DNA from: an uncultured Desulfovibrio sp.
GTDB taxonomy: Bacteria > Desulfobacterota > Desulfovibrionia > Desulfovibrionales > Desulfovibrionaceae
Direction of reading: 5' to 3'
NCBI GenBank assembly: GCA_900541395.1
Contig: UQJT01000015.1
Coordinates: 1 to 50,932 of the forward strand
DNA: 50,932 nt
Shown: in pieces, positions 1,860 to 35,867 of the stretch
Numbering within the stretch: position 1 is the first letter of the stretch
How the letters are laid out: the number at the start of each line of letters is the position of its first letter
Made by a program: the position numbers and the translations under genes
Notes under the pieces: model-generated
The model's database searches: none
Seen by the model: the letters and a program-made list of their open reading frames with translations, nothing else
What the model was told of the DNA's origin: nothing

Positions 1860-2338
1860 CAGGCTTCTCCTTGAAAAAAGAGCAGTTGACCTTGAAATGT
1901 TCCATCTTCAACGCATGTTGCTTTTGAAATTGGACAATTTCAAAAGCAACGCGGGCGTCATTTCGCCTGAAAAGCGTGGTTTTCAGGCTGGCACGGGCGC
2001 CCGCTTCCGCAGTCGCCGGGCCGTTTCAGGGGAAAACGGTTTTTAAAGCCAGACTGCCTGAAACGCCCGCCGGATGGACGAAAAAAGCGCGTTTTGTTTC
2101 GGCGCCCCCGGCTTTATACCCTCTCTTGCCTCGGATAGCCATGCCCGGAGGAGGGAAAAATTCCAACGGTCCTCCCCTTGGGCGCTTCGGCCCGGTCAGC
2201 CTGAAAGGGCGTTCGCCGTCCGCCGGGCATGCGCCCGGCCGCGAAGCCGAGCCGTCTCCAGCCGGGGATAATCGCTTGCTTTCAGCCTTCAGACAGGTCA
2301 AAGTGCGTTCGTCACTCAATTTGTTTCCGGAGTCCGCC
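1860..2338. other. Intergenic region without a gene, holding repeat copy B
   Basis: No convincing gene is present between the divergent fhs and DUF3298 genes. The left half carries repeat copy B. The right half (2048-2338) is GC-rich, with hairpin-prone stretches around 2160-2270. An open frame runs through from 1976 into the next gene, but that gene's signal peptide fixes its start at 2339. Confidence 0.6.
1917..2047 (+). repeat. Dispersed three-hairpin repeat, copy B
   Basis: This copy opens with a perfect 16-bp stem (1917-1932 with 1935-1950, 2-base loop). An 8-bp stem follows (1966-1973 with 1980-1987) that is identical to the one in copy A. The third stem-loop is degenerate: CCGTTT and AAAACGG near 2022-2040. 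It has the same orientation as copies A and C. Confidence 0.8.
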
Positions 2339-3118
2339 ATGTCCGTCATCCGTTTTGCGCCCTTCCGCTGCCTGTGTCTGCTGAGTCTGGCCCTGGCGCT
2401 GTTCGCTTCCTCGGCCGTCGGTGAAGAGCCGAGCCCGACGGCGGAAAAAGAAGCCAACGTCATCCGCCGTACGACTGAATTCGTGGATATCAACGCCTCG
2501 TGGCCGATAGTGGGCATTGCTCGGGTGGACGACGAATCGCGCGCCTTCGTGACCGGCCTGGCGGACAGGTTCGAGCAGGAAATCGAGGCTCTGGCCGCTG
2601 AGCCCGGCGTGGAGGAAATTGCCCACCTTTTTCCGTATGAACTGTCCATCTCCCATGAAGCGACCTATCCTTCCCCCCGTGTGGCGAGCATCCTGTGGAA
2701 CATCTGGAGCTTCACGGGCGGAGCTCACGGTATGCTCGACATCGTGGCCAACAATTACGACCGCTCCACCGGTTACCCTCTGTTGCTGGAAGACCTGTTC
2801 GTGGACCCGGATCTGGCTGTGCTCCAGTTCAGCAAGGCGGCCCGCCGCGTTCTGGCCGAACCGGACGAGGGCTCGGAGGACGGCGCGGGCATCCCCGACG
2901 AAATGCTTATGGCCGGAACCGAACCGGTGGAAGACAACTTCCGCACCTTCATCGTCATCCCTTCGGGCATCCGCCTGCATTTCCAGCCCTATCAGGTGGC
3001 CCCCTGGGCCGCCGGGCCGCAAACCGTGGATGTTTCGCTGGACGAACTGCAGGCGGCCAAACCCAACCCGGAATTCTGGGACGCCGAGGCTCCGGCCGGA
3101 GAAACCAGCAAGCCTTGA
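2339..3118 (+). CDS. Exported DUF3298 (RsiV-like) domain protein
   Basis: A 259-residue protein with an N-terminal signal peptide: basic start, hydrophobic core to about residue 24, then a likely cleavage before EEPSP. The rest matches the DUF3298/DUF4163 fold found in RsiV-like anti-sigma factors and PdaC. The diagnostic TGGAHG motif falls at about residues 126-131, and the C-terminal signature LHFQPYQVAPWAAGP is near residue 220. No sigma factor gene is adjacent and there is no cytoplasmic anti-sigma segment, so a periplasmic stand-alone role is more likely than sigma regulation. Its substrate is unknown. The frame is open upstream to 1976, but the signal peptide and GGAG at 2329 support ATG 2339. 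Confidence 0.8.
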   Translation: MSVIRFAPFRCLCLLSLALALFASSAVGEEPSPTAEKEANVIRRTTEFVDINASWPIVGIARVDDESRAFVTGLADRFEQEIEALAAEPGVEEIAHLFPYELSISHEATYPSPRVASILWNIWSFTGGAHGMLDIVANNYDRSTGYPLLLEDLFVDPDLAVLQFSKAARRVLAEPDEGSEDGAGIPDEMLMAGTEPVEDNFRTFIVIPSGIRLHFQPYQVAPWAAGPQTVDVSLDELQAAKPNPEFWDAEAPAGETSKP

Positions 3119-26701: not shown

Positions 26702-26883
26702 AAAAATGCGGCGGCGCCAGAGGAAGGACGGCGCGGCGCCCTCGGCCGTCAGCGCGAAGCGCTCCACGGATAAGGAGAGCGGAAGTCTCGCCTTGTTCGG
26801 CTCCGCGGAGCATTTCAATGGCGAAATGCCCTAACCTGAAAAAACAGACGCCCTCGCCCGGCGAGAGCGCAAGGAGCAGACCC

Positions 26884-27913: not shown

Positions 27914-27975
27914 GACGGCGCACTCCGCTTCGCGGCGTTTACGTCGCCGACGGCGACAGGAGCCGCCGGGCGGGG
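27914..27975 (+). repeat. GC-rich 3'-end repeat, copy 1
   Basis: A roughly 62-base segment sharing most positions with 34085-34147, about six differences in the first 44 bases. It lies between the stop codon of the dipeptidase homologue (28031) and a strong hairpin (27886-27907), the same order as copy 2 after ygiW. Confidence 0.6.
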
Positions 27976-34084: not shown

Positions 34085-34147
34085 GACGGCAAACTCCGCT
34101 TTGCGGCGTTTGCGCCGCCGACGGCGGCGAAGCCGCCGCCGGCGGGG
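34085..34147 (+). repeat. GC-rich 3'-end repeat, copy 2
   Basis: A second copy of the roughly 62-base repeat at 27914. It lies between the ygiW stop (34166) and the terminator at 34049-34079, with a five-base gap to the hairpin (six in copy 1). Confidence 0.6.
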
Positions 34148-34658: not shown

Positions 34659-34795
34659 CCGCGTGGCGCGCGGACTATTCCCCATTTAAAACCCGCCACG
34701 GCCACGGCGCAAGGAGAGACTCGGAACCGCCCCTGATAGTGTAGCCCCGCTCCGTGGCCGATGAAATCGTGAACGCGACGAATCTGGAGTATTTT

Positions 34796-34935
34796 GCTTG
34801 TGAAATTATCCAATTTCAAAAGCGGCGCTGCCGTCATTTCGCCCGAAAAGCGTGTTTTTCAGGCTCATTCGACGCGGGCGTCCGCTCCCGCGGCCGCCGG
34901 AGCGCTTGCCGTTTTCAACAGCAAAACGCTCTAAA
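34796..34935 (+). repeat. Dispersed three-hairpin repeat, copy C
   Basis: The most complete copy. It has stem 1 (34796-34807 with 34812-34823, one mismatch), stem 2 (around 34842-34864, one mismatch) and stem 3 (34901-34913 with 34917-34930, small bulge). It lies 86 bases beyond the grpE stop, in the same orientation as copies A and B. Confidence 0.8.
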
Positions 34936-35669: not shown

Positions 35670-35867
35670 GAGGGCCGGACAGAAGCGTGATAATGCCCTC
35701 GCTCCGCAGCGACGGGAATACATCGTCCGAAGCCGCGGGTTTCATGGAAGCGCCACGCTGATTTACCGCCGGATCGGCGCTTGGCGGCCATGAGGGCATT
35801 TTCCTTCAAAAATGCTCTACGCTCTGATTACGCGGGCGGGGTCGAATGAATGCGGGGTGAGGTCGTC

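Follow-up and report, generated by a model that had tools for sequence, protein, structure and literature searches.

A probable family of IS630-linked, four-hairpin MITEs in Desulfovibrionaceae and its occurrence at stop codons

The repeat that occurs three times in the window, the whole stretch of 50,932 nt of DNA analysed here, very probably represents a new family of IS630-linked MITEs built of four hairpins, a variant within a known type of element. We regard it as very probable that it is a MITE with ends recognised by IS630, which inserts at TA, preferably Y-TA-R, and for which stop codons are suitable and harmless targets. The sequences themselves show TA at both edges, two empty sites, ends in common with an insertion sequence, covarying hairpins and a location at stop codons. 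Mobilisation in trans is predicted from these features; the bias towards stop codons may reflect target preference together with tolerance by selection, and any part that the hairpins play in RNA stability or termination is conjecture. In the proposed mechanism, an IS630-family (Tc1/mariner-type) transposase, supplied in trans, would recognise ends of the form 5'-TA-GAGC.. / ..GCTC-TA, excise the MITE and insert it at a TA (preferably Y-TA-R), the TA being duplicated. Since the first base of the element, next to the TA, is G, a TAA or TAG stop entered at its TA would be rewritten as TAG with the protein unaltered, and stop codons would thus be suitable and harmless targets; the 3' untranslated RNA would then begin with the four-hairpin body.

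The three copies described in an earlier, sequence-only reading of the window are all present, on the + strand and with identical module order. That reading had the loci right, and we amended its bounds to 1-95 (copy A), about 1909-2044 (copy B) and 34785-34933 (copy C); its three stem-loops were also found, but a fourth, GC-rich one sits between its second and third. An 18-base core occurs three times against 0.06 expected, a count reached in none of 100 shuffles. A profile of 32 copies, which included B and C and left out A, found three places in the window with E < 1e-20, copy A at 3.2e-22; the next-best places are reverse readings of C (8.4e-6) and B (1.6e-4), and the remainder have E >= 0.11. 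As had been described, copies A and C are each located on the 3' side of a minus-strand gene, fhs (at 0 nt) and grpE (at 88 nt), respectively; copy B is located between divergent genes.

Copy C (34785-34933, +; covariance model 151.2 bits over model positions 1-149) gives the full length of about 149 bp. Its left end reads TGGAGTATTTTGC vs TAGAGCATTTTGC in most copies, and its right end CGCTCTA. Its four modules, all on the + strand and assigned by alignment, are H1 at 34796-34823 (GCTTGTGAAATT / AATTTCAAAAGC, with one mismatch), H2 at 34841-34864 (GCCCGAAAA / TTTTCAGGC, with a 6-nt loop), the GC-rich H3 at 34877-34898 (with a T.C mismatch) and H4 at 34899-34932, which includes the right inverted end GCTCT; H1, H2 and H4 do not belong to the lowest-energy fold, which pairs the two ends of the copy. 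Copy A (1-95, +) is truncated by the window start and lacks its 5' end (90.6 bits, model 50-149), with H2 at 8-31, H3 at 39-60, H4 at 66-89 and the target TA at 94-95, all on the + strand. The neighbour it has entered is fhs, encoding formate--tetrahydrofolate ligase (93-1859, -; PF01268, 747.8 bits), whose TAG stop codon (93-95, -) consists of the target TA and the element's first G. Copy B (1909-2044, +) has decayed ends (100.8 bits over 1909-2043); it retains H1 at 1917-1950 (15 bp) and H2 at about 1963-1991 on the + strand, with H3/H4 altered.

Other repeats were encountered in the window. Two small TAGAGC-like near-palindromes, at 35791-35819 (-) and 26806-26833 (-), could be short versions of the element that have decayed, the former, TAGAGCATTTTTGAAGGAAAATGCCCTCA, being identified as a possible relative by its sequence. 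A second repeat pair of 42 nt, 88% identical, lies at 27914-27955 and 34085-34126 (GACGGC..CTCCGCTT.GCGGCGTTT..). A segment at 2966-3069, in a DUF3298/PdaC-type gene, has matches at several places close to one another in genome G002 (C3:226076, 226966 and 227171) and one in Desulfovibrio sp. ZJ369 (genome G001).

In relatives of the window copies, e.g., L001 and L020, the lowest-energy fold is a chain of four hairpins, H1-H4, with a weak stem enclosing H2. Copy A folds as H2-H3-H4 (z -3.4), copy B forms H1 and H2, and among seven copies folded together six have z-scores of -4.5 to -9.5, copy C being the weakest at -2.5. The covariation that the sequence-only reading had put forward as a check is present: across 32 aligned copies, 27 of 51 pairs show changes on both sides and pairing holds in 86.5% of cells. 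Computed on the lowest-energy fold of the aligned copy L001, a choice that favours the structure over the slid controls, covariation scores 0.256, whereas the slid controls reach 0.059-0.081 and shuffles 0.112. The weak one of the five shuffle measures is that of further pair types, which 12 of 500 shuffles reached. The unguided RNAalifold prediction for the 32 copies differs in part: it pairs the two ends and retains H3 and H4 incompletely (32 pairs, 18 with both-side change).

These data bear on an explanation in which the four hairpins serve the host, as a structured RNA or as an element of mRNA 3' ends (a stabiliser, terminator or protein-binding site), and mobility was only the means of spread; we consider it unlikely. 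The both-side changes, the excess of covariation over the slid controls and the folding z-scores would all fit it, as would an H2 loop, RCGYGG, that is mostly constant across subfamilies while the stem changes, an excess of G.T over A.C in H2 (31 to 13) and in the stem enclosing it (39 to 8), and insertions at stop codons, which put the element in mRNA. Against it, the H1-H4 stems of 123 distinct copies show no overall one-strand RNA signature (G.T 111, A.C 140; p 0.077): the helices disagree, with H1 (22 to 39) and H3 (17 to 42) leaning the opposite way, although reading in both directions would blur such a signal. Moreover, copies are patchy between genomes, and an Rfam search of the window at the gathering score returned four tRNAs only, the repeat having no family match. 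The structured RNA of the sequence-only reading is a lesser possibility, with neither an overall one-strand signature nor an Rfam family. A different account, in which hairpin symmetry is kept by DNA processes (arm copying in replication) or by the transposition reaction and not by RNA function, is a possibility to be taken seriously, though we lean away from it. It accords with the way in which, within ZJ369, the H2, H3 and H4 arms have been replaced as matched pairs by quite different, still matching sequences, with extra hairpins in some copies, and with the about equal frequency of G.T and A.C cells overall. However, arm copying alone would leave the largely constant H2 loop unexplained, and the lean of H2 and its enclosing stem to G.T also speaks against it.

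The reading of the repeat as a MITE draws on its edges as well as on its being short (149 bp), non-coding and dispersed. Edges were counted in 78 distinct full-length copies from related Desulfovibrionaceae: TA stands at the left edge in 62, at the right edge in 63 and at both in 52 of the 78, the base before the left TA being C/T in 91% and that after the right TA A/G in 84%. Terminal inverted repeats (TAGAGC / GCTCTA) are present in most copies; the perfect repeat is short, which speaks against the reading, and similarity beyond it is partial. Two empty sites with one TA each were recovered, one at the fhs stop in G002, considered below, and the other in a comparison of two related viral contigs (L230 against L232). 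In one contig, an element at the stop of a 193-aa gene is flanked as AAGCC-TA-[element]-TA-AAGG; its relative, 93% identical in the protein next to the site, reads AAGCG-TA-AAAG, with a single TA at the same stop and without the element. Over the element, the occupied contig is identical to a place in G002. Given the TA edges, the empty sites and an IS630 element with the same ends, the mobile non-autonomous element that the sequence-only reading had listed among its possibilities is the one borne out.

The candidate partner is an IS630-family insertion sequence. PF13358 has nine matches in ZJ369 and 12 in G002; many of the IS630 matches in ZJ369 lie at contig ends, so that copy number there is probably underestimated. 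The matching insertion sequence is about 1 kb long, with TAGAGC-type ends and a 310-aa ORF that scores 196.5 bits against the NCBIfam IS630 model (cut-off 100). In ZJ369, its right ends in L189 and L008 begin TAGAGCATTTTGCTTTT, which is the element's left end, 17 nt being identical; other ends of the insertion sequence are less exact, and those in G002 fit the element less well. Close to IS630 relatives in G011, G028, G047 and G061 there are ends that read TAGAGCNNTTT, assigned by position only. Copies of the insertion sequence in L005, L193 and L008 adjoin an H4-type arm ending GC before TA (one side seen), and the element copy L023 occupies the equivalent place of an H4-type hairpin (both sides seen), which suggests that element and IS630 copies have shared a target at H4-type arms. 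From these common ends, the element is probably moved by an IS630 transposase. At the level of whole genomes, a PF13358 search of the element-bearing G018 and G056 gave no match, and among the 61 genomes of the genus the element is found in 21 and the transposase in 17, with a co-occurrence in seven that is not above the 5.9 expected by chance.

The TA edges and IS630-matching ends also stand against REP/BIME-type palindromes moved by a RAYT (Y1 transposase), which we judge highly improbable. The repeats do share with such systems an intergenic, palindromic character and mosaic combinations, and Y1 transposases are found in 12 of the 18 genomes searched; yet the element-bearing G034, G018, G049 and G021, partly draft genomes, have no Y1 match, and the 'REP-like' label of the sequence-only reading is, in the RAYT sense, not upheld. 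An IS630-linked MITE remains the preferred reading, and the distribution of its copies was followed among related genomes.

A degenerate pattern of the core occurs at 24 loci in genomic contigs (22 in ZJ369, one in another Desulfovibrionaceae member and one in a Legionellaceae MAG) and in two viral contigs; the Legionellaceae match (L024) was discarded, being a palindrome without the element's ends. In a DNA search, ZJ369 matched at 41 places and G002 at 48, a number of these being the reverse reading of one palindrome. At E <= 0.001, 21 of the 61 genomes of the genus have matches, many covering H3 or the first 21 bases only, and at E <= 1e-6, 19 of the 297 genomes of the order do, the scoring of two candidates per genome making this a measure of presence and not of copy number. 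The covariance-model search that the sequence-only reading had suggested, with a model built from 32 copies, returned 74 matches at E <= 0.001 in 1.25 Mb, with rough E-values and with matches that partly overlap and partly include the model-building copies: three in the window, 48 in 400 kb of ZJ369, and 12, five and six in 200 kb each of G018, G002 and G056. Part of these matches are smaller or related elements, and the same search of 200 kb of G007 gave none. The repeat has dispersed copies in related Desulfovibrionaceae, and recent spread is indicated in ZJ369, where five separate sites carry one and the same 149-bp sequence.

ZJ369 also has smaller palindromes with the same ends, of 29, 36-38 and 50 bp, some of those listed being the H4 end of a composite. 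The 50-mer corresponds to H1 in closed form and the 36-38-mer likewise to H4, so that the composite would seem to consist of two small palindromes placed around an H2-H3 core. A separate composite family of about 141 bp in ZJ369, TAGAGCAGATTACCTTTGACTTTT.., has the same ends and its own hairpins (L291 7656-7796, L295 14205-14344), with shorter forms of 86-87 bp (L293 18115-18201, L277 18402-18487). The sequence TAGAGCATTTT may resemble rhizobial RIME repeats.

The relation to stop codons emerges from 74 distinct copies flanked by 180 nt or more. In 25 of them the stop codon of a called gene is formed at the edge TA, as TAG in 24 and as TAA in one (L086); when the flanks are joined to give the empty site, an in-frame TAA/TAG results in 22 of the 25 and TAT in three. 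Among non-coding TA sites of 76 control loci (from ZJ369, G002, one viral contig, the window and the Legionellaceae L024), 115 of 3050 (3.8%) lie in stop codons, and 45 of 459 (9.8%) when only YTAR sites are counted. The excess of 25/74 has binomial p-values of 2.6e-14 and 1.5e-6, respectively, with the 74 test copies including genomes beyond the control loci.

A survey of 20 stretches of 20 kb (400 kb) of ZJ369, with genes called by a codon-score caller and not taken from annotation, found TAG|AGC at the end of 27 of 294 closed genes and in 27 of 85 TAG stops; 25 of the 27 genes have an element-type end, mostly that of smaller relatives. The 113 element-type ends of the survey comprise 25 at stops, 79 in non-coding DNA and nine in called coding sequences, several of these nine probably being chance. 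Counting elements of any size, TA sites are occupied at 25 of 157 stops and at one of 90 positions 1-30 nt downstream (p 1.3e-4); farther out, occupancy is 8/154 at 31-80 nt, 6/186 at 81-150 nt and 12/669 on the 5' side. With empty sites restricted to YTAR, the comparison becomes 25/56 at stops vs 1/12 at 1-30 nt downstream (p 0.022), and the stop excess over 31-80 and 81-150 nt has p 0.11 and 0.056. A crude scan located the second TA edge in 12 of the 27 genes, of which 10 restore TAA/TAG and two read TAC. Of the 27 genes, 20 were compared with NCBIfam; 16 of these have a match, and in 15 of the 16 the matched model reaches to within eight positions of its C-terminal end (urease alpha, 572/572), the exception being a partial phosphate transporter. 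At L284 14882-14970, one cluster of small elements is bordered on both outer sides by TAG|AGC stops, those of two convergent called genes.

The same survey was extended to five other samples, four of 200 kb and the window, with the gene caller retrained for each genome. ZJ369 with a retrained caller has 26/151 stop sites occupied vs 14/433 downstream (p 7e-8), and G018 4/86 vs 6/340 (p 0.12). No stop-codon bias is seen in the 200-kb samples of G002 (0/75 vs 2/271) and G056 (0/53 vs 3/324); in the 200 kb of G007, 0/55 stop sites and 0/254 downstream sites are occupied. The window has 0/17 vs 2/94, copy A being missed since its end reads TAGATC. Of the five genomes sampled, the genome-wide stop-codon bias is strong in ZJ369 only.

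Such a pattern could in principle be only selection for harmless sites near 3' ends, a TA-R target preference or a gene-calling artefact. TAA and TAG meet a TA-R preference automatically, the contrast weakens when empty sites are limited to YTAR, a codon-score caller was used, and G002 and G056 are without the bias. Nevertheless, the near-vacancy of TA sites 1-30 nt downstream of stops, compared with those at the stops, which persists in the YTAR-only comparison, argues against this reading, as do the urease alpha, dapB, nifS and other proteins that reach their model ends at the element's edge. So too does the count of TAG stops followed by AGC, 28 of 80 in ZJ369 vs 0 of 33 in G007, whose sample has no covariance-model match. 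On balance, such a reading is rather doubtful, and we favour a MITE for which stop codons are acceptable targets.

A single orthologous gene illustrates the point. The window derives from a third species, its fhs DNA being 74% identical to that of both ZJ369 and G002, and the fhs proteins of the three species align to the last residue. At the stop, G002 reads TTT-TAA-CCC, without an element; ZJ369 reads TTT-TAG-AACATTTTTTGATT.., with a different 50-bp palindrome of the same style; and the window reads TTT-TAG-ATCGCTTTGCCG.., which is copy A. Hence, at a single orthologous stop codon, two species have insertions of different members and the third has an empty site. For ZJ369, and for individual copies elsewhere, there is good support for the entry of elements into stop codons and the re-creation of the stop.

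Several known systems share parts of this arrangement, as far as the consulted portions of their descriptions go. RUP of Streptococcus pneumoniae (about 107 bp) likewise has TA at its termini and a partner, IS630-Spn1, inferred from ends in common (PMC2229807, PMC3049150); it differs in host, the likeness is one of description, and those portions mention neither a four-hairpin composite nor stop re-creation. The Nezha MITE of cyanobacteria, from yet another host, was similarly assigned to ISNpu3-like elements via common ends (PMC3049150). The Correia/NEMIS elements of Neisseria (about 107 and 155 bp) have TA termini and structured transcripts, but are described with 24-bp terminal repeats and are associated with RNase III and IHF (PMC2229807). 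BOX of streptococci is a modular composite predicted to fold on transcription (PMC3049150), in which, by that account, the number of boxB modules varies, whereas here four positions are mostly fixed, stem sequences are swapped and some copies have extra hairpins. ISY100, as described, belongs to the same IS630/Tc1-mariner transposase superfamily as the insertion-sequence partner and is autonomous (PMC2170065); the matching insertion sequence here is about 1 kb with a 310-aa ORF. A literature search, covering few subscription journals, recognised neither the element nor stop-codon re-creation.

The system is a tangible example of a transposable element with an end so matched to the genetic code that stop codons tolerate its insertion. 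The assembly of multi-hairpin MITEs could be explained by such a set of IS630 ends, exchangeable hairpin modules and small palindromes. Orthologues that either have or lack a preformed hairpin 3' untranslated region provide a natural experiment on 3' ends: 27 of the 294 sampled ZJ369 genes are concerned, which by extrapolation would be about 200 genome-wide if the sample is representative. We therefore put forward, tentatively and with confidence short of even, a stop-codon-specialised transposon system in which IS630-mobilised elements, from 29-bp palindromes to four-hairpin composites, would re-create TAG through TA-GAGC and so make their insertion silent, and in which the mobile hairpin 3' untranslated regions of ZJ369 (8-9% of sampled genes) may control mRNA 3' ends.
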